The notes beneath the pieces are model-generated. The model was not told where the DNA came from. It did not search any database and worked only from the letters and a program-made list of their open reading frames with translations. 64,000 nucleotides of DNA, taken from contig NZ_CP019893.1 of the NCBI RefSeq assembly GCF_002156705.1, positions 1,240,001-1,304,000 of the forward strand, written 5' to 3'. The position numbers were made by a program, and so were the translations under genes. This document shows positions 6,485-54,118 of this stretch, one piece after another (the first letter of the stretch is position 1; every line of letters starts with the position of its first letter). This stretch comes from Natrarchaeobaculum aegyptiacum (GTDB lineage: Archaea > Halobacteriota > Halobacteria > Halobacteriales > Natrialbaceae).

Positions 6485-6570
6485 CTATAGTAGCCACTGC
6501 ACGTCAGTGTACACCTGATCGCCAGACGGACCGGCGATCAGTGTGTGAATCGTTGGAGTTGTTACTATAG
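6485..6570 (+). repeat. Dispersed palindromic repeat, copy 2
   Basis: This copy is complete: both ends are CTATAG, and the core stem CTGATCGCC/GGCGATCAG is a perfect 9-bp pairing around an AGACGGAC loop. Orientation is the same as copy 1. It lies downstream of the TRAM gene and just past the 3' end of the convergent membrane-protein gene, so it could also act as a transcription-ending hairpin. Confidence 0.85.
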
Positions 6571-22863: not shown

Positions 22864-23042
22864 ACGACACCTTGCTACGCGACGGTCAACAACGGTTCGG
22901 CCGTCGTCACCCTCGAGAGGCACCGATTGCGGCCGCTCGGTTACTGGATTGGCAGTCGTCGACGGTGGCGACGGTACGATCCAGAGAGACAGACACTCCA
23001 CCGGAGGGAAACGTGTTTGTGGGGCCGCTCTGATTGCAGTGT

Positions 23043-24935
23043 ATGAGCGATCTGGGCGATTTCACCGACTTCGACGCAAACAGCGGCTCCTCGGGCGACG
23101 GGTCGGTCGATTCGGATCACGGAACCAGCGATGGGGCTACCAGTACCGATCCCACCGACGCGGCGTCGGCTGCAGACGCAGACCGGTTCGACCGTCCCGA
23201 CGTCGAACGCGCCGGCGAGGACGTCGGCATCGGCGCACTCTGTGTCTCCCGTGGCCTGCGCGTCGCCGAGGACGAAGACGACACGACCCTTCAGGCTTAC
23301 GTCACCCGCGGCAACCGGTCCTCGATCCGCATCGGGAGTTATCTGCTCGCACCCTATCCCGACGGGGCGGCTACCGCCGCCAGTCAGGAGCGTGCCGGGA
23401 GGCACGCGAACGGCGAGACGCTGTTCTGTCGCATCTCGGGACTCGAGTACGCCCAGCTCTACCACGCCGACGACGCGACCGAGATCCACGCCCGTCGGGC
23501 GATGCGCTCCGATGGCATCGAGGAAGCCGACTACCGGTTTCTCGCGACGCTCGAGCCCGTCGCGATCCTGTACGACGACGATGGCGAACTCAAACGGCGG
23601 ATGACCGACCGGGTCCCCAAACCCCAGACGGTTATTCGAACCGCCGACGACACAGAACAGATCAAGACCGGCCTCAAGATGCCCGAGGATGGCGTCTTCC
23701 TCGGTCACCTCTCGGTCGGTGGCGAGAAGGTCAGAACTGCGGCGAGCCCACCGACGATCGACTACCGACTCAAAGACGACTACGACGCGGGCGATCCCCT
23801 GGTCTTCCGGCATACGCTGGTCGCCGGCGGCACGGGTTCGGGCAAGACCCACGCCGCGAAGAACGTCCTCCGGCAGTACCTCGATTCGGACCTGACCTAC
23901 CCGATGGAAGACGGCCGGGACGTCCAGCCCGCGGTCGTCCAGTTCGACCCGCAAGACGAGTACGCCCAGATGCACGACGACAACCCCGACCTCGACGGCG
24001 ACTTCGCCCGCCGACTCGAGCGCGAGGACATCGCCTACGGCGGCGTCGAGAACACGACCGCATTTATCCCGAAAGTCGGGGACGCGACCTACGCCGCGAG
24101 CCACCACCGCGCCGAGCAAGTCGAGTTCACGATTCCGTTCGCGATGTGCCGAACCCGGCCGTGGCTCGTCTCCGGCGGCTCGCTCAACGACAATCAGTAC
24201 GGCGCACTCACCTACCTCATCGACCGCTTCTTCGAGCAGTACGGCGACGGCGGCACTTACTCGGCGTTCAAATCCTTCCTCGACGACCCGGCGCTCCGGG
24301 AGGAACTCGACGAGTCCGGGCGGGTCCACGAGGCGACCTACGACGCCGTCCGCCGGCGCGTCTTCGGCTTCGATTCCGTCTTCGATCAGGACGCCCGCCC
24401 GATCACCGACCTGATCCACCAGTTCGTCCGCCCCGGTGGGCTCTCGGTCGTCCCGACCTACCACGTCAACGATTCGCGAGCCACGGAGGCCGTCGTGCTC
24501 GCGCTCTCTTCCCTGCTGATCGACGAGAAACTCTCGAACGATCCGACCTACGACCGGATCAAGGAGACGCCCCTCATTCTGGGGATGGACGAGGCCCACA
24601 ACTTCCTCACCGACGCCGACAGCGTCCAGGCACGCAAGGTCATCACCAAGTTCACCGAGGCCGCAAAACAGGGGCGGAAAGAACGGCTGGGCCTGTTCCT
24701 TATCACCCAGGACCCACAGGACATCGACGACGCCGTCTTCAAGCAGATCAACACCACCGTCGTCCTCAACTTAGGCGACGAGGACGCCATCAAGAGCGTT
24801 AACATCCCCAGCAACCTCGAGTCCAAGGTGCCGTACATGGAGAAAGGCCAGATGGTCGTCTACTCGCCCGATAATTCGGAACCCGTGGAGTTGATCGGCC
24901 TCTCGAAATGTCTGACCCGTCACGGGCGGGAGTGA
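23043..24935 (+). CDS. HerA-like ATP-binding protein (DUF87)
   Basis: The 630 aa product has an acidic disordered N-terminus to about residue 55 and a beta-barrel region. The RecA/FtsK-like ATPase has Walker A GGTGSGKT (262-269) and Walker B ILGMDEAHNFL (near 520), followed by LGLFLITQDPQDID, a sensor region typical of HerA/VirB4 ATPases. HerA hexamers drive DNA end resection with NurA; no nurA is adjacent, so this may be one of the other haloarchaeal DUF87 proteins. The ATG at 23043 is preferred over a TTG 9 nt upstream. Confidence 0.85.
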   Translation: MSDLGDFTDFDANSGSSGDGSVDSDHGTSDGATSTDPTDAASAADADRFDRPDVERAGEDVGIGALCVSRGLRVAEDEDDTTLQAYVTRGNRSSIRIGSYLLAPYPDGAATAASQERAGRHANGETLFCRISGLEYAQLYHADDATEIHARRAMRSDGIEEADYRFLATLEPVAILYDDDGELKRRMTDRVPKPQTVIRTADDTEQIKTGLKMPEDGVFLGHLSVGGEKVRTAASPPTIDYRLKDDYDAGDPLVFRHTLVAGGTGSGKTHAAKNVLRQYLDSDLTYPMEDGRDVQPAVVQFDPQDEYAQMHDDNPDLDGDFARRLEREDIAYGGVENTTAFIPKVGDATYAASHHRAEQVEFTIPFAMCRTRPWLVSGGSLNDNQYGALTYLIDRFFEQYGDGGTYSAFKSFLDDPALREELDESGRVHEATYDAVRRRVFGFDSVFDQDARPITDLIHQFVRPGGLSVVPTYHVNDSRATEAVVLALSSLLIDEKLSNDPTYDRIKETPLILGMDEAHNFLTDADSVQARKVITKFTEAAKQGRKERLGLFLITQDPQDIDDAVFKQINTTVVLNLGDEDAIKSVNIPSNLESKVPYMEKGQMVVYSPDNSEPVELIGLSKCLTRHGRE

Positions 24936-25041
24936 TCGATTCCGGATTGCGTAGCGGTCGAACGGGTATCGTGGGTCGTCAGCGACACCAGTTCACCCGG
25001 GCGGCGGAATTCTTTTGTGACGATGCGGTATCGATTCACGT

Positions 25042-25473
25042 ATTGATACGAGCGACGAGCGTGCAACCGCGCTCGCCACGCTCGAGGATTCGCTCAGTCG
25101 TGATCCGGACGTCGAGTTTGCCGTGGCGTTCGGTTCGCAGGTCTCGGGCGATCCCACCCGATCGTCCGATTTCGACGTTGCCGTCAAATTCGCGAAGAAG
25201 TTGTCACCTCGAGAGCGATTTCGAAAGCGGTGTTTCCTCTCCGGGGACCTCCAACGCGAGGGGGAACCGTTCGTCGATACTTCAGATATCGAAGAACTTC
25301 CGCTCGAGGTCGCCGCCGACGCCGTCGATGGCTCCTTCGTTTGCGGTGACGAACAGGCGTTTCGGCAGTTCAAATCTGAGATCGAAACTGAATTTTCCGA
25401 GCGTCGATCCGACATCCGTCGACACCAGCGCGACGTTATCGATCGAATCGCGGAGCGTGGCTTGCGTGGCTGA
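25042..25473 (+). CDS. MNT-type nucleotidyltransferase (antitoxin of MNT/HepT), start unclear
   Basis: The frame has the minimal nucleotidyltransferase motif FGSQVSGDPTRSSDFDVAV (GS-x10-DxD) and the conserved tail RRHQRDVIDRIAERGLRG. MNT proteins add AMP groups to HepT toxins and so silence them. Homologous coding sequence begins near 25042 (DTSDERATALATLEDSL), but the frame from 25021 has no ATG, GTG or TTG before the GTG at 25123. Translation may therefore start late, use ATT at 25042, or be lost. The 3' end overlaps hepT by 8 bp. The partner gene is broken. Confidence 0.65.
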   Translation: MDTSDERATALATLEDSLSRDPDVEFAVAFGSQVSGDPTRSSDFDVAVKFAKKLSPRERFRKRCFLSGDLQREGEPFVDTSDIEELPLEVAADAVDGSFVCGDEQAFRQFKSEIETEFSERRSDIRRHQRDVIDRIAERGLRG

Positions 25474-25668
25474 CGAAGGAGTCGTCGCGGTGAAACTCGA
25501 GCAGATCGAACAGTACCACCGCGAACTGAAAGAAAAACAGGCGACACTCTCTTGCCAGGACCTGCGCACGAATACGACCGAACAACGCGCTGTCGAGCGA
25601 ATGTTTGAGAACGTGATCCAGGCGTGTGCCGACCTCGCCCAGCACGTCGGCACCCACGACTTCGGGTA
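25466..25668 (+). pseudogene. hepT toxin gene, 5' part (interrupted)
   Basis: GTG 25466 opens MADEGVVAVKLEQIEQYHRE, followed by TEQRAVERMFENVIQACADLAQHV, the N-terminal half of HepT (DUF86) RNases. Similarity stops at HDFGY, exactly where TACTATAG occurs (25667-25674). The frame runs on to 25834 with unrelated residues. The catalytic Rx4-6HxY motif is absent. The matching C-terminal piece lies at 27712. The toxin is inactive as it stands. Confidence 0.72.
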
Positions 25669-25972
25669 CTATAGCCACGTCAATCGGGTGGGTGAGCGAC
25701 GCTTGTTTATCGTCATCAGTTGTTTTCTCGTCGAGGAGATGCGCTGCATCGGTCGAAAATTCGAGTTCTGTCTTGAGTTCGATGTCGCTTCCATCGGCCG
25801 TGAGTACGACATCGCCGTGGACGGTAGCCAGTAGGTCTCGATCAGGAACTACCGATAAGCCGTCTCTATCGTGCGATTTTTCCCTAAATAAAGTCGACCA
25901 GCCACAACGACTTATTGAGTCAATTCCCACATCAAACATCATGGGACATAAAATCCAATAGTAATATCCAAA

Positions 25973-26005
25973 AGATATATATATACATATATATATAGAT
26001 AGATA
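25973..26005. promoter_or_regulatory. TA-repeat tract before the halocin-like gene
   Basis: A run of TA and GATA repeats ends 17 bp before the ATG at 26022. It offers several TATA boxes and probably contains the promoter. Such a tract can change length by slippage, which could alter promoter strength (inference). The composition differs sharply from the GC-rich surroundings. Confidence 0.5.
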
Positions 26006-26021
26006 GAGTTTTGAAACAATC

Positions 26022-26966
26022 ATGGATAGAAGAACTATCTTGCAATCGATTACTGCAAGCATCGCAACAGGAACGGGCATCGGCAGTGTGAGTGCTGAAT
26101 CTCCTGGAAGGAAGTCGGGAGATAAAACGTGGAGAGAATTAAGGGGAATAGAACATAAAAGGACACTCACTATCATTAAAAACGATGGTGATGTGAAAGA
26201 GCTTGTAGACAAAGTTGCTGACGACGGTTGGGAACCAATGTGGGGTGAGACTGTTGTTTACCGTACATCGCTTGAAATCGATGGCCAAGAAGGAACATCC
26301 GATTCAACCGCTGTGCCCTTCAAGCATGAAGAGGACTTAGCAGATGAAGAAATGTTTTTAGTTTGGCTCGGTAACAGTACCATTAACGTGGATGAGGGGG
26401 CTGCACTCCATCATTTGGAATATGATGCTGGGCAGCTTGAAACTTTCTCGGATGTAAAGACCAATGAAGGTCCTTCCACAAATTTTGAACGATCTACAGC
26501 ATATACCATCTCCGAAAGCGGAATCGAAGCTGAAATCACTGATCAGGATGCTGAATCCACTGATATTCCTGAATTGTCAACTGCATCAACCGGATACTGC
26601 ACGGTTAATGTATGTGAAACCACCTCAGGCGATTGGGATACCGCATGTATTGCAAGACTCGCCTTAGCAGCTACCGGTTCAACACTTGGATGCCTTGGAT
26701 CAGCAATAAAGCCATCCCTAATCGTTGCCTGTGCGATATCTGTTGGACTGACCGCTGATCAACTAGCCCAGTGTTCAGGCGTATACGACGGCTGTCAGGG
26801 GGGTGGGGTGCAAGAGATGACCATTGAACAGGAATGGCTTTGGAACTATGCAAGTTGGGCACCCGGCCAACATGCTAGCGCCAACCCATGTAACCGATAT
26901 GCTCCTGGGACCGGTGCCTATATGCCAATCCACGAAGACGACATTGATGATGCACCAACTCGATAG
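26022..26966 (+). CDS. Tat-exported halocin C8-like precursor (candidate)
   Basis: The 314 aa product is coded by AT-richer DNA than its surroundings. It starts MDRRTILQSITASIATGTGI, a Tat signal with Arg3-Arg4. Residues 30-185 are hydrophilic with a WEPMWGETVVYRT block. Residues 190-262 are a hydrophobic, Cys- and Gly-rich segment (Cys193, 198, 209, 224, 237, 251, 258), and one more Cys lies at 290. Halocin C8 precursors have this plan: a Tat signal, an N-terminal immunity part and a Cys-rich antimicrobial C-terminus released by cleavage. The extra 50 C-terminal residues are unlike C8. The call rests on architecture, not on alignment. Confidence 0.55.
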   Translation: MDRRTILQSITASIATGTGIGSVSAESPGRKSGDKTWRELRGIEHKRTLTIIKNDGDVKELVDKVADDGWEPMWGETVVYRTSLEIDGQEGTSDSTAVPFKHEEDLADEEMFLVWLGNSTINVDEGAALHHLEYDAGQLETFSDVKTNEGPSTNFERSTAYTISESGIEAEITDQDAESTDIPELSTASTGYCTVNVCETTSGDWDTACIARLALAATGSTLGCLGSAIKPSLIVACAISVGLTADQLAQCSGVYDGCQGGGVQEMTIEQEWLWNYASWAPGQHASANPCNRYAPGTGAYMPIHEDDIDDAPTR

Positions 26967-27010
26967 TATTGATATAATTGAATAAACGGCAACCTCCGTC
27001 ACATATTGTT

Positions 27011-27175
27011 ATGAACCGTTTTTATTGGAACTTGATGATCGGGTTATTTATGTTCTCATACGGCATTCTTGAATTTACGCTCTCGTGGACAGAGGGGAGA
27101 ACAATTCGGGGGATTTTAGCCGGTATACTCGCCATGTACGGATGCGTTCATATTTGGCTTACGATCAAAAGTTGA
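27011..27175 (+). CDS. Two-helix mini membrane protein, immunity candidate
   Basis: ATG 27011 opens a 54 aa protein, MNRFYWNLMIGLFMFSYGIL and onward, with two membrane helices (about 5-22 and 30-50) and a basic end. It starts 44 bp after the halocin-like gene on the same strand with the same low GC. Small membrane proteins beside bacteriocin genes often give immunity; that role is inferred from position only. Confidence 0.55.
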   Translation: MNRFYWNLMIGLFMFSYGILEFTLSWTEGRTIRGILAGILAMYGCVHIWLTIKS

Positions 27176-27178
27176 GTT

Positions 27179-27625
27179 CTATTCGGCATTGTTTAAACGC
27201 CCCACTTCATCGCCTGCTGAATCGCTGGGTTCAAATTCGACTTTGCAGACGAAGCGCAGTTCCCACTCGTCGCTGTTCCAGACGGCACAAACGTTCTGTA
27301 CTCGGGTAAATTCTGAGAGGTCAACGTCTGGACGGGTCAGATACTCACAGAGGATGAAGTCAGACCAACTCTCTGTGAGGTTTGACCCTTTAGCGTGAGA
27401 CCGTCGGTCTCACGGACCATTCGAACGGGCGCATAGCGCCCGTGAGAAGAAGCCGGGGGGTTTGCCTCTGGGTATTTCTGTCGCAGGTCGAACCACGACT
27501 GGAACGCATCAGACAGTTCTTCGATGACTTTCTGTGCTCAAAAATCTTCGATTTCTGAGGACGCCGTGAACGGTGGACTTCTCTCGCTGTTCAAAGATAG
27601 GCTACAGCGAGGTGTGCGAACTGCT
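27179..27625 (-). pseudogene. tnpB (IS200/IS605, IS1341 type) remnant
   Basis: Reading leftward, one frame carries KVIEELSDAFQSWFDLRQKYPEANPP. After a hairpin segment another frame carries ESWSDFILCEYLTRPDVDLS and VQNVCAVWNSDEWELRFVCK and stops at 27179. These are consecutive blocks of the N-terminal half of haloarchaeal IS1341-type TnpB, the RNA-guided nuclease of IS605 elements. The catalytic RuvC part is missing and frames are broken, so it is a relic. The two hairpins at 27395-27443 sit between the blocks. Confidence 0.65.
27395..27443. other. Tandem hairpin element A
   Basis: Hairpin 1 is GTGAGACC-GTC-GGTCTCAC and hairpin 2 is ACGGGCGC-ATA-GCGCCCGT, with an 11-nt linker ending TCGA. The element at 35642 has the same plan and compensatory base-pair changes in both stems, so the structure is conserved. 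It lies inside the tnpB remnant, in place of sequence that TnpB normally encodes. It may be a palindrome-associated element mobilised by an IS605 transposase, or part of a TnpB guide RNA. Confidence 0.6.
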
Positions 27626-27711
27626 CTATAGTAACAACTGAAACTGTTTGCACACCGATCGCACAGCCGTCGTGCGATCGGGTGCGCACTGACTTTCAGT
27701 GGCTACTATAG
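27626..27711 (-). repeat. Dispersed palindromic repeat, copy 4, at the hepT junction
   Basis: Both ends are CTATAG. The inner stem is CCGATCGCAC/GTGCGATCGG instead of CTGATCGCC/GGCGATCAG, with T:A replaced by C:G, a compensatory change. Orientation is opposite to copies 1 and 2. Its right end directly abuts the hepT C-terminal codons at 27712. Confidence 0.8.
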
Positions 27712-27801: not shown

Positions 27802-27956
27802 TTATCCCTTCATCCGCTTGGCCAAAACGAGTGACTGGCCGGCCTCTCGAGGTGTCTGACCCGGTACGGTCGGGACTGAGCGGTCTCGAGCCCGCGACGA
27901 GAGAGCACTCGGTCGGTTCCCAACGTTTTTCGTAGCTGATTGATACGATACGAACG

Positions 27957-47165: not shown

Positions 47166-47250
47166 CTATAGTAACAACTGCAACGATTCACACACTGATC
47201 GCCGATCCGTCTGGCGGTCAGGTGTGCACTGACGTGCAGTGGCTACTATA
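47166..47250 (-). repeat. Dispersed palindromic repeat, copy 3
   Basis: The left end is CTATAGTAACAACTG and the right end CAGTGGCTACTATA, in the orientation opposite to copies 1 and 2. The inner stem has one mismatch (C opposite A). It lies between the PGF-CTERM gene and the DUF5790 gene and may end the former transcript. Confidence 0.82.
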
Positions 47251-49134: not shown

Positions 49135-49340
49135 TCAGTCGTCGTCCCCGGCGTCCGCGTCCACCTCGACTTCCGTCCGCGCCTGTCTGCGCTGGGCACG
49201 CTCGATGAACTCCTGTGGGAGGTCGTCGATCTCGCCGGCCTGTACCCCCCAGAGATGGGCGTAGAGGCCGTCTTCCTCGAGCAGTTTCGCGTGGGTGCCG
49301 CGTTCGACGATCCGTCCGCCCTCGAGCACGAGGATCTGAT
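49135..49340 (-). pseudogene. Duplicate 3' end of the ABC exporter gene
   Basis: This segment is nearly identical to the end of the ABC gene at 52195-52370, including ILVLEGGRIVERGTHAKLLE and WGVQAGEIDDLPQEFIERAQ. It ends in EVEVDADAGDDD, where the intact gene ends in EAKQYD. The upstream side switches without warning to DUF5789 sequence near 49335. It probably marks the original end of the exporter, separated from it by the island. Confidence 0.8.
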
Positions 49341-49527
49341 CGGCCCGTTGAAGGAGGACAAATACAGCGGCTACGACGAGAGCAAAACCACGATCATGAA
49401 CATGGTCGGCGACGAGGTGATAGGTCAGAAGAACTACAGCGACCGGACGCCGGCCGCGTCCGGTGAGGAGCGACAAGATGAGGGGACGCCGGATGACGAA
49501 GGACACAGAGTCCTGAAATTATTTTAG
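49338..49527 (+). pseudogene. Duplicate 3' half of the DUF5789 gene
   Basis: The frame reads LIGPLKEDKYSGYDESKTTI, MNMVGDEVIGQKNYSDRTPA and ends HRVLKLF. It is a diverged copy of residues 51-112 of the gene at 48764. It is joined head-on to the ABC fragment. An open frame from 49255 could make a chimera, but the first 27 residues are antisense ABC sequence. Confidence 0.75.
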
Positions 49528-49646
49528 CAATCAAATTCGGCATTAATGGAAGAAATTGTGTATAAGACACTGATAGGCCGAGACCACCGACTATAATAGA
49601 TAAATCCATTCAGCTCTGGTTAGGATGCCAGATTACGTCAGTTCAA

Positions 49647-50400
49647 TTATTGGCTTTCAACATCCGAAACCCTACCGGTCAGTATACCAATAGCATCTTC
49701 TACAATTTGTGGGTTTTCACTGAAGCCTAAACACACTTCACCGGGAACAACTGGTATGTCAGTGCAATTACGGGCCCACCTGAATGTAAACTGGACACCT
49801 AGCTCACGGTCCCCGGTATCACCCTTCTCGTGATCAAGTCGGCTCACAGAGATTCCGTCTTGGAAGGCGAGCACTGCCAATGCCGCGGCGACTATGTACC
49901 CTTTTGGACCAAATTTTGTTGCGATAGTTGCGGCACCACTTTCGAGACCAATACGCCCTAACATTACCTCTTGAGCTAACTGGGTATTATCATAATCCAA
50001 TTTGATCAGGTGGGTTTGCCAAGGAGTTCCAGATGTACTCCTATCATCTGAAATGTAATTTTCGTTTCCACTACTGTGTGGTGTTAAACCTTGGTATTGT
50101 TTCTCTTCTAACCCCTGTTCAGTGGGAACTAAGATTACCCCGTTATCCTTTTCTTCAACATCAATGAGACCATTTTCTTTTTGTTTGTTTACTTGCTGTT
50201 CAATTCCCTCCAAGTTGTTTTCACTCTCTTCTTTGATTGATTGCTTAAATACAAGCTTGCTATCTTCCATTTTGAAAGCTGGTTCCTCATCTTCTCCAGA
50301 AAGATGTTCCTTTTTTTGGTTCGGTCGACGCGGCCACTGACGGGATTCCAATTAGCGTAACTGATCCTGCCGCTACAGACAAAATTCGTCTTCGATTCAT
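49647..50400 (-). pseudogene. Tat-exported protein with a frameshift in an A7 run
   Basis: ATG 50400 opens MNRRRILSVAAGSVTLIGIP, a Tat signal, followed by SVAASTEPKK. That frame then stops. The rest, EHLSGEDEEPAFKMEDSKLV to the stop at 49647, is in the next frame, and deleting one A from the run of seven (T7 at 50311-50317 on the plus strand) joins them into a 250 aa protein. The C-terminal half has a hydrophobic segment (YIVAAALAVLAF) and two cysteines. The low GC contrasts with the chromosome. It may be a toxin or surface protein of the island. Confidence 0.6.
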
Positions 50401-50519
50401 CTTTGTTTTGTGGGACCTCTTTTTTCTAACCATCCATACCAATATCCTATGGTTATAATTATAATAGTTTCTATTAACTATTTAGGTGTATAGAATATAA
50501 TATTTGAATTATGGTCCCC

Positions 50520-50819
50520 CATAGTGCATTGTTGATTTCGATTGTAGCTCAAATAGCGTGTTTGAGCGGGGCTCGCTCGGGTTTTGGGCATAACTACCGC
50601 CGTAGTTGAAACGCTCTGAAATACGGTGTCAGTTTGTTCTTGGAGATTCCTCGATCTAGCGAGAGCCGCCGTCGCGTCAGCGACGCGTGGCCCTCACAAG
50701 TGTTGACGTGTGTTTCATCGTCGGTGTATTCGCCATCACCGTGGACGACGTATTCACGGTTGGATGCGTCGTCCTCTTCGAGCGGTTCGTACGCTCGAAA
50801 GCCGTTAGTATAAACGGTG
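50520..50819 (-). pseudogene. IS1595-type transposase, C-terminal fragment
   Basis: Reading leftward, the frame gives TVYTNGFRAYEPLEEDD, REYVVHGDGEYTDDETHVNT, CEGHASLTRRRLSLDRGISK, NKLTPYFRAFQLRR then a stop. This is the last part of the DDE domain of haloarchaeal IS1595-family transposases (HVNTCEGHAS and RGVSKDKLTPYLRAFQLRR in relatives, from memory). No N-terminal portion is present. Confidence 0.65.
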
Positions 50820-51122
50820 AGCGACTCCTGCTGAGTATTGGCCAGCAGGAGTCAGATCGTCGATTCGTCGGCAGCTTTTGCTGGGATTACGTACCGTTGG
50901 TCTGTTCCGCGACCAGCGAGAATGAACGGCGACGACCTCTCGAACCGATAATCCAATCGAATGCAATCGCACCCCGACACCTGTTAGGGTGGTCGGGGTG
51001 CGCTCGTCTCCCAAACCTCACTACAATTCACGTCCAAGGTTTTTCTGAGCTGATCGGCGAGTTGCGTGAGCACTTCTCGCCACTACCTGCTCGTCCCTCA
51101 AACTCTCATCTAGACAGTGCCG
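50820..51122 (-). pseudogene. IS6-type transposase, 5' fragment (left copy)
   Basis: The frame includes REVLTQLADQLRKTLDVNCS, then after a one-base loss ERTPTTLTGVGVRLHSIGLS and VREVVAV, the start of haloarchaeal IS6-family transposases. The outer end GACAGTGCC at 51114-51122 is the terminal repeat. A matching copy lies at 51703 in the opposite direction. The fragment is cut where the IS1595 fragment begins. Confidence 0.65.
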
Positions 51123-51256
51123 TTGCGCCATACTACTAGTTTGACAGCGATAGAGTCTCCAAAGAACAATATAGCAATTGACACCCGATTTCTAATAAAC
51201 CAGCGGAAGAATAACACAACTATTTCATTCGTTAGATCTGTCATTCAGTAATTTAC

Positions 51257-51619
51257 TCAATATAATCTATTCGCAATATATGATGCAGAGGGAGAAAGTG
51301 AGTAAATGAAAATGAGCGTCACGACAAAGGTTGAAAATGCATATCCCAAACTACCGGTTATTATATATCCATAACCTAAGATAATTAAAGACCCAGTGGA
51401 ATAGACTAACAGATATACATCCCCCAAAATACCAAGCCACTTGATCAATATTATAGTAAATGTATAGGACAGAAATATATTCATTATTAATAATTCAATA
51501 TTGTTTTGATCGTATGACCGATACCCAAGACCAATAGTCAGTATTAGAAGTGAGAGCATAAGTAAAATCCCAGCATATTCAACGACCGATTTATAACTTA
51601 CCTTATTGTTAACCACCAT
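51257..51619 (-). CDS. Four-helix membrane protein of the AT-rich island
   Basis: The 120 aa product, counted from ATG 51619 (MVVNNKVSYKSVVEYAGILL), has about four membrane helices and a basic start. The GC content is far below that of the chromosome. It lies between two inverted IS6 fragments, so its origin is foreign. It may be an immunity or toxin-related membrane protein for the exported protein at 49647, by analogy with the pair at 26022/27011; this is speculative. An upstream start at 51706 is less likely. Confidence 0.5.
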   Translation of the reverse strand: MVVNNKVSYKSVVEYAGILLMLSLLILTIGLGYRSYDQNNIELLIMNIFLSYTFTIILIKWLGILGDVYLLVYSTGSLIILGYGYIITGSLGYAFSTFVVTLIFIYSLSPSASYIANRLY

Positions 51620-51702
51620 TGTAATTACCCTCAACGTATTACACACCCTTGTATCAATTAAATTTTTGTGTCCCCTCTGAGTTTGCTTTCGAGGAGCGTT
51701 TT

Positions 51703-52073
51703 GCACTGTTTAGATGAGAGTTTGAGGGACGAGCAGGTAGTGGCGAGAAGTACTCACGCAACTCGCCGACCTGGTCAGAGAAACCTTGGACGTGAATTGT
51801 AGTGAAGTTTGGGAGAACGAGCGCACCCCGACCACCCTAACAGGTGTCGGGGTGCGACTGCATTCGATGGAATTGGCGGTCCGAGAGGTCGTCGCAGTGC
51901 TCAACTTACTCGGTATTGACCGTTCTCACGGCGCAATCTGGAATTGGACGCACAGATTCTCGGAGCACAGAGCGACTCTCCGACGGCATAGCCGTCGCGC
52001 ATCGCGGTCAAAGAAAAACAGATTGTGGTAGACGGCAAGAGAAAATGGCTGCATGCTGCGCTATCCGCCATGA
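51703..52073 (+). pseudogene. IS6-type transposase, 5' fragment (right copy)
   Basis: From the end GCACTGTT at 51703 the frame gives REVLTQLADLVRETLDVNCS, ERTPTTLTGVGVRLHSMELA and DRSHGAIWNWTHRFSEHRAT. A frameshift follows, and RIAVKEKQIVVDGKRKWLHA continues to a stop at about 52073. It lacks the catalytic C-terminus. It mirrors the fragment ending at 51122. Confidence 0.68.
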
Positions 52074-52180
52074 TTTGAATTGCTTTTTCCAAAAGAACCG
52101 ATGGTTAGATGGGGTTTTAAATCGAAATCACACGGCCAGAAATAGAGGTTTGGGGATTTGAACCAGAGCGTTCAATTAGT

Positions 52181-54118
52181 TTAGTCGTACTGTTTCGCTT
52201 CCGTCCGCGCCTGCCGCCGCTGGGCACGCTCGATGAACTCCTGTGGGAGGTCGTCGATCTCGCCGGCCTGTACCCCCCAGAGATGGGCGTAGAGGCCGTC
52301 TTCCTCGAGCAGTTTCGCGTGGGTGCCGCGTTCGACGATCTGCCCGCCCTCTAAGACGAGGATCTGGTCTGCGTCCTTGATCGTCGAGAGGCGGTGGGCG
52401 ATGGCGAACGTGGTTCGGTCTTCGGTGAGGTCGTCGATCGAGCGCTGAATGAGCATCTCGGTCTCGGTGTCGACGTCGCTGGTTGCCTCGTCGAGGACGA
52501 GGATGTCGGGGTCCTCGAGCACCGCGCGGGCGATGGCGATCCGCTGGCGCTGGCCACCCGAGAGTTTGACGCCGCGTTCGCCGACCATGGTGTCGTATCC
52601 ATCGGGGAGGTTCTGGACGAAGTCGTGGGCCTCCGCCGCTCTGGCGGCAGCCTCGATCTCCTCGCGGGAGGCGTCGAACGAGCCGTAGGCGATGTTCTCC
52701 TCGACGGTCCCGTAGAAGAGAAACGACTCCTGACCCACGTAGCCCATCGACCGACGGAGACTCGAGAGCGAGACGTCCCGGACGTCCTGCCCGTCGATGC
52801 GGATGGTCCCCTCGTCAACGTCGTACAGCCGCAAGAGGAGTTTCAGGACCGTGGACTTCCCGGCGCCCGTCGGCCCGACGAGCGCGACCGTCTCGCCACC
52901 GTCGACCTCGAAGGAGACGTCCTCGAGGACGGGTTCGCCGTCGTCGTAGGCGAAGCCGACCCGCTCGTAGGCGACGCGGCCCTCGTAGACCTCGAGTTCG
53001 TCGGCGTTGGCGTCGCGCTCGATCCGCCCCTGTTCGTCCATCAACCCGAAGATGCGCTCGCTCGAGGCCTCGGCACGCTGGTACATGTTGATGACTTGCC
53101 CGAACTGGGCCATGGGCCAGACGAGTTGCTGGGTGTACATGATGAAAACGACGAACGTCCCGACGGCGAGTTCGCCCGTGATGGGACCGGGGCCGGTCCC
53201 GGTGAAAACCCAGTAGCCACCGACGAGGAAGGTGAGGACGAACCCGATCCCCGAGATCAACTGCAGCCCGGGAAAGAACTTGATTCGCAGCCAGATAGCT
53301 CCCCAGTTGGTGTCGTAGTACTTCCGGGAGACGTCCTCGACGCGACCGGACTCGAAAGACTCGGTGTTCGAAGATTTGATGACGTTGATCCCGCCGAGGT
53401 TGTTCTCGAGTCTGGAGTTTACCTTCCCGACCGACGAGCGGACGGCGGCGTACTTCGGCTGGATCTTCTTGACGAAGAGGTAGGTGAACATCGCGATCAG
53501 CGGGACCGGGGCGAGCGAGACGAGTGCGAGCTGGGGCTCGAGCCAGAACAGCAGGACGGTGATGCCGACGACCATCACGATCAGCCGCGTCGCGGAGTTC
53601 ATCCCCTCGTTCAGGAAGCGCTCGAGCTGGTTGACGTCGTTGCTGAGCACCGACATCATCTCGCCGGTCTGCTTGTTCGCGAAGAACTCCATGTCGAGAC
53701 GCTGCATCTTGTCGTAGGTGGCCGTCCGGACGTCGTGTTGAACGCTCTGGGAGAAGGCGTTGAACCCCCAGTTGCGTAGCCAGTGGAATATCGCCCCGAA
53801 CGCGAACGAGCCGGCGATAACGACGACTACGAACGTGAACTGTCCCATCTCGGTCGTCGGCAGCCACGCTTCCGGCAGCGCCGACAGCGGCACCTGTTCG
53901 GCGAACGCGGCGTCGGAGAAGACCGCGTCGATCGCTACCGCAAGCATCAACGCGGGGAGCAAATCGAGCGCCCGCGCGAGCACGCTCGCGATCAGTCCGA
54001 TCGACACCGAGAACCAGTAGGGACGACCGTACTCGACGAGGAGTCGGCGCATGGGACTCTCGACGCTGTCCCGTTGCTCCTCGAACGGATCGTCTTCGTC
54101 CCAGTCGACGCCATCCAT
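52181..54118 (-). CDS. ABC-type exporter, fused membrane and ATPase domains
   Basis: The 645 aa protein has six helices (about 35-330) and an ATPase with Walker A VGPTGAGKSTVLKLLL, Q-loop YVGQESFLFYGTVEEN, signature LSGGQRQRIAIARAV, Walker B ILVLDEATSDVD and H-loop IAHRLSTI. It is a half-transporter of the MsbA/lipid A or multidrug type that dimerises. Start 54118 (MDGVDWDEDD) was chosen over 54145. The C-terminus EAKQYD is unusual because the original end lies in the duplicate at 49135. Confidence 0.92.
   Translation of the reverse strand: MDGVDWDEDDPFEEQRDSVESPMRRLLVEYGRPYWFSVSIGLIASVLARALDLLPALMLAVAIDAVFSDAAFAEQVPLSALPEAWLPTTEMGQFTFVVVVIAGSFAFGAIFHWLRNWGFNAFSQSVQHDVRTATYDKMQRLDMEFFANKQTGEMMSVLSNDVNQLERFLNEGMNSATRLIVMVVGITVLLFWLEPQLALVSLAPVPLIAMFTYLFVKKIQPKYAAVRSSVGKVNSRLENNLGGINVIKSSNTESFESGRVEDVSRKYYDTNWGAIWLRIKFFPGLQLISGIGFVLTFLVGGYWVFTGTGPGPITGELAVGTFVVFIMYTQQLVWPMAQFGQVINMYQRAEASSERIFGLMDEQGRIERDANADELEVYEGRVAYERVGFAYDDGEPVLEDVSFEVDGGETVALVGPTGAGKSTVLKLLLRLYDVDEGTIRIDGQDVRDVSLSSLRRSMGYVGQESFLFYGTVEENIAYGSFDASREEIEAAARAAEAHDFVQNLPDGYDTMVGERGVKLSGGQRQRIAIARAVLEDPDILVLDEATSDVDTETEMLIQRSIDDLTEDRTTFAIAHRLSTIKDADQILVLEGGQIVERGTHAKLLEEDGLYAHLWGVQAGEIDDLPQEFIERAQRRQARTEAKQYD

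Follow-up and report, generated by a model that had tools for sequence, protein, structure and literature searches.

Few antimicrobial peptides are known from archaea. The halocin C8 family was reportedly expanded by computational means by Makarova et al. in 2019, and that set may already include some of the proteins or membrane partners described here. The halocin C8 precursor is processed into a peptide and the immunity protein HalI, the N-terminal part of the precursor, and a single gene yields both product and immunity (PMC8628083; PMC11509114). Work cited within PMC11509114 reported that HalI needs its N-terminal helix-loop-helix for immunity. HalH4 and HmHapP (HFX_0892) of Haloferax mediterranei are exported precursors that reportedly depend on an extracellular serine protease to free the active fragment, which in HmHapP is the N-terminal part (PMC12893001). 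HmHapP is likened here to the precursor described below by its protease activation, not by its sequence. Its membership of the same family was considered and dropped, as the short sequence given by its primers lent no support.

A window of 64,000 bp was analysed from Natrarchaeobaculum aegyptiacum (NZ_CP019893.1, positions 1,240,001 to 1,304,000). The features of interest are listed in Table 1. The 314 aa precursor ORF begins with MDRRTILQ, a twin-arginine signal. The arginine pair at residues 3-4 was invariant in an alignment of 10 relatives. The protein is acidic, with 52 D+E compared to 20 K+R. It contains eight cysteines (193, 198, 209, 224, 237, 251, 258, and 290), none earlier than residue 193 and all within the last 122 residues. 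A preliminary description of this DNA had proposed a 314 aa ORF with a Tat signal, a Cys-rich hydrophobic segment at residues 190-262, and eight cysteines with an additional 50-residue C-terminus. The ORF was borne out at 26022-26966, with the RR motif read from the sequence, and the cysteine positions confirmed the remainder, with seven cysteines in the segment and the eighth in the tail. Direct searches of the precursor against NCBIfam, Pfam, and PDB gave chance-level matches only. The AlphaFold model, made from a four-sequence input, was unusable (mean pLDDT 43) and a helical hairpin is therefore a weak prediction.

Table 1. Features of the cassette and its surroundings (window positions).
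Feature	Position	Strand	Remarks
HerA-like ATPase gene	23034..24935	+	left neighbor of the island
MNT-type nucleotidyltransferase antitoxin	25042..25473	+	intact; Pfam Polbeta 5.5e-10
HepT remnant	25505..25690	+	first half only; match to positions 1-63 of 120
Remnant similar to ComEC/Rec2-type genes	25665..25842	not assigned	
Precursor gene	26022..26966	+	314 aa; putative halocin-C8-type N-domain and differing Cys-rich C-domain
Predicted twin-arginine signal sequence, residues 1-26	26022..26099	+	MDRRTILQSITASIATGTGIGSVSAE; read from sequence
Putative N-terminal pro-domain, residues ~29-90	26106..26291	+	family-level homology with the HalI part of halocin C8 precursors
Cys-rich hydrophobic segment, residues 190-262	26589..26807	+	candidate mature peptide; 7 cysteines
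C-terminal tail of precursor, residues 263-314	26808..26963	+	contains C290
54 aa protein, candidate immunity protein	27011..27175	+	two hydrophobic segments; start 44 bp past precursor stop
Remnant similar to TnpB-family genes	27202..27534	not assigned	
MITE-like repeat, ~85 bp	27626..27711		>30 genome copies
Degenerate second herA 3' end, 43 bp	27840..27882	+	84% identical to 24896-24938; possible right island edge

Precursors carrying the halocin C8 domain model TIGR04449 were gathered from 391 genomes. One of these, L010, is genuine halocin C8 and contains the known 76-residue peptide. As a positive control this peptide scored 61.5 bits with the model, which has a curated cut-off of 24 bits. 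The window precursor missed this cut-off and gave no match up to E = 10, and no match was found in a TIGR04449 profile search of genome G000. A likeness of residues 190-262 to halocin C8 had been suggested in the preliminary description, but no similarity was found directly, by profile-profile comparison or by family-profile ranking. The hhalign probability of the Cys-rich part against the halocin C8 domain was 0.6-1.1%, close to that of shuffles. Ranking of a pool of 4,309 sequences with the Cys-rich family profile placed zero halocins among the top 50 (p = 0.55).

The N-terminal domain gave a different result. Without the Tat signal, the alignment of the window family with the halocin C8 family begins where the mature protein does, and a conserved stretch of the window family (HKRTLTIIKNDGDVKELVDKVADDGW) aligns with the HalC8 stretch EKRTLARELAKTPAFRELAQRARADG. 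The hhalign probability was 75% with 10 strict members and 94% with 17 members, compared to ≤0.1% for the matching column shuffles. Two column shuffles with false high hhalign scores, one of 129.2 and the other of 128.7 over six columns, were treated as artefacts. The N-domain profile, with the signal removed, was run on 4,309 sequences, of which 29 were TIGR04449 precursors and 4,280 were ORFs from the host genome. TIGR04449 precursors took all of the first eight places, the fourth going to genuine HalC8 (Mann-Whitney p = 2e-19). Searched by itself, the window protein reached only E = 38 with the TIGR04449 N-domain profile, a chance-level value, so the claim for the N-domain rests on the family profiles. 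Because the N-domain profile ranks eight TIGR04449 precursors first, the window protein is classed at the family level as a halocin-C8-type precursor by its putative pro/immunity domain, with other cargo. As the N-domain matches and the Cys-rich profile does not, the two precursor families appear to have the pro-domain in common while their peptide domains are unrelated or too diverged to recognize.

In the halocin C8 precursor (ProC8/HalC8, 283 aa; TIGR04449, halocin_C8_dom) as in the window precursor, a Tat signal is followed by a homologous N-domain and, toward the C terminus, by a hydrophobic part rich in cysteines, whose number is even. They differ in the cysteines, eight in the window precursor with other spacing compared to 10 in halocin C8, and in the C-domain, which in the window protein is not recognizably related and continues for 50 residues past the hydrophobic core. 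A separate small membrane gene follows in the window, while the HalC8 clade is without one. Of the halocin C8 precursor plan put forward in the preliminary description, the relationship of the Cys-rich segment did not hold; the homology, at the family level, lies in the 60-70 residues after the Tat signal. To call the protein an undescribed class was too strong, as the precursor is a divergent offshoot within the superfamily of halocin C8 precursors.

The window precursor shows a trait of this superfamily, an exported, disulfide-capable Cys-rich domain at the C terminus with an even cysteine number. Cysteines were counted over the last 130 residues, to which they are almost wholly confined. 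Counts ranged from 6 to 14. The number was even in 18 of 18 members of the window family (p = 8e-6) and in 40 of 41 TIGR04449 precursors, compared to 20 of 31 background ORFs with at least six cysteines. The p-values for parity are optimistic as the sequences are kin; the counts nevertheless vary widely between members. C209, C224, C237, and C251 are invariant across the core family. Since the number is even in all 18 relatives, as would be expected for an exported domain with disulfide bonds, the tail is probably disulfide-bonded. Covariation of the tail cysteines was abandoned, as one relative contradicts it.

By genome searches, relatives of the precursor were located in roughly a dozen genomes of haloarchaea, most of which belong to the same family. 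The arginine pair, W115, four central cysteines, and a GW motif close to residue 70 are common to ten full-length members. Uncharacterized relatives include those of Natrialba hulunbeirensis (L114), Natrialba sp. SSL1 (L115), Natrarchaeobius chitinivorans (L116, the same locus as L046), and a plasmid of Haloarcula sp. CBA1115 (L112, WP_154020837.1). These four resemble the window precursor in whole-length architecture, central cysteines, and an adjacent small membrane gene. They are 20-26% identical to it and differ in that their tails end in a cysteine. Their partners are mostly larger (89-133 aa, three TM) with the exception of the 49 aa Haloarcula partner. The tail of the window precursor is ~9 residues shorter than in its closest relatives and lacks their last cysteine, which is present in nine of 10 aligned members; for this reason the window copy might be degraded. 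Three relatives (L044, L048, and L059) were broken by stops or split frames, suggesting that decay is frequent. Two copies were plasmid-borne. The patchy distribution, plasmid copies, and broken copies fit a conflict gene. When genome contigs were scanned, the window protein as query returned nothing and a subfamily alignment returned three named relatives. No relative was found in viral contigs and phage records.

The 54 aa two-helix protein lies 44 bp downstream as previously described, although only one of its two segments passes the strict hydropathy threshold. It gave chance-level matches only against Pfam and NCBIfam, and no recognizable homologue of its own was found. Partners were defined as ORFs that start no more than 150 bp downstream, encode 40-160 aa, and have one or more TM segments predicted by hydropathy. 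Such an ORF followed 31 of 61 precursors compared to 14 of 222 ordinary host genes (p = 3e-14). For the window family alone the figure was 10 of 18 (p = 4e-7 against the same 14 of 222) and for halocin-C8-type precursors 21 of 43. No small membrane gene was found downstream in the true HalC8 clade (L010, L011, and L020), which agrees with the published finding that a single gene provides its immunity. At L046 the partner is inverted yet still adjacent, and it shares homology with the L047 partner. Partners were recognizably homologous where the precursors were at least ~38% identical (L040/L043/L037 and L046/L047) and otherwise were not, a pattern like that of cognate pairs. Adjacency and a partner relatedness that tracks precursor identity are marks of toxin-immunity pairs, and an immunity role for the partner is inferred from these sequence comparisons. 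The pairing is more than chance, as relatives occur in about a dozen genomes and most have an adjoining small membrane gene.

The cassette DNA has a GC content of 47% in a chromosome of 65%. Its foreign appearance, remarked on previously, was borne out by a GC content of 46.7% at 26001-27000 compared to 62-69% across most of the window. The island is ~2.9 kb and follows the HerA-like ATPase gene. Besides the cassette it contains the MNT antitoxin, the broken HepT, the ComEC-like and TnpB-like remnants, and the MITE-like repeat. The flanking ATPase and TrpRS genes are not neighbors in related genomes. The cassette was said in the preliminary description to disrupt a toxin-antitoxin locus. The MNT-HepT pair is real and HepT is broken, but the cassette may have arrived after the HepT break, because the ComEC/Rec2-like remnant separates the break from the cassette. 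In G004, which belongs to another genus, a stretch (L131) that reads by eye as MNT-HepT-like is likewise bounded by herA on one side and by a repeat of the herA tail on the other. The duplicated herA tail at the far end of islands with MNT-HepT-like genes in two genera suggests that these islands may be inserted at the 3' end of herA, a protein-coding gene that may serve repeatedly as an integration site.

Further copies of the ~85 bp MITE-like repeat are located in the window at 19-108, 6485-6570, and 47166-47250. A second AT-rich island is present at 49345-52197 (GC content 43-55%). It is flanked by 175 bp ABC transporter gene 3' ends which are 94% identical (49170-49344 and 52198-52372). 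It encodes a 234 aa protein with a hydrophobic center and a 149 aa multi-TM protein, neither of which had a Pfam or NCBIfam match over the cut-off. These two may represent a further conflict pair carried by a 3'-end island.

The two genes are considered, with some confidence, to encode a Tat-exported, protease-activated, disulfide-rich candidate of halocin type together with a dedicated membrane immunity protein. The earlier antimicrobial-precursor reading is supported by the N-domain homology and the membrane partner association, not by segment 190-262. The precursor would be exported via the Tat pathway and cut extracellularly, probably by a subtilisin-like protease. Three subtilisin-family proteases are encoded in the host genome, and protease activation of halocin precursors has been published for Haloferax mediterranei (PMC12893001). 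The cut would free a C-terminal hydrophobic disulfide-bonded peptide, kept inactive or soluble until release by the N-domain. The freed peptide may attack the membranes of related haloarchaea, with the 54 aa protein shielding the producer.

The same toxin could instead be neutralized by the N-domain of its own precursor in the manner of HalI, with the 54 aa protein as an accessory such as an anchor or a processing or export helper. The single gene of HalC8, the alignment of HKRTLTIIKNDGDVKELVDKVADDGW with EKRTLARELAKTPAFRELAQRARADG and the helix-loop-helix reported in the work cited within PMC11509114 favor this arrangement. It is considered unlikely, as L010, L011, and L020 are without a downstream membrane gene while many other precursors have one, which points to immunity having passed to the additional gene. 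A pair with no antimicrobial role, in which a secreted Cys-rich surface or signaling protein acts with a membrane partner, would agree with a Cys-rich domain that has no toxin match. However, the N-domain profile places halocin C8 precursors first, and a housekeeping surface protein would not be expected to show such scattered occurrence, carriage on plasmids, and rapid divergence of partners, making this rather improbable. Least expected is that the cassette once encoded a halocin-like peptide and is now inactive. The HepT, ComEC-like, and TnpB-like remnants around it, the early end of its tail, and the clearly broken copies in the family are what decay would leave, but both frames are intact, every invariant cysteine is present and the cysteine number is even, and a dead cassette is thus very unlikely.

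Returning to the favored reading of a toxin candidate with a dedicated immunity protein, a wider system is tentatively proposed for haloarchaea. It is possible that one halocin-C8-type pro-domain is combined in a modular way with several unrelated disulfide-rich peptides, many of them accompanied by a fast-evolving immunity protein of two to four helices, with the built-in immunity of HalC8 as the exception. The rule drawn from halocin C8 is a single gene for peptide and immunity. About half of the halocin C8 relatives seem instead to carry a separate small membrane gene. The comparison also suggests that a retained pro-domain can be joined to a wholly different peptide part. The pro-domain profile is a route to precursors overlooked by halocin-domain searches.
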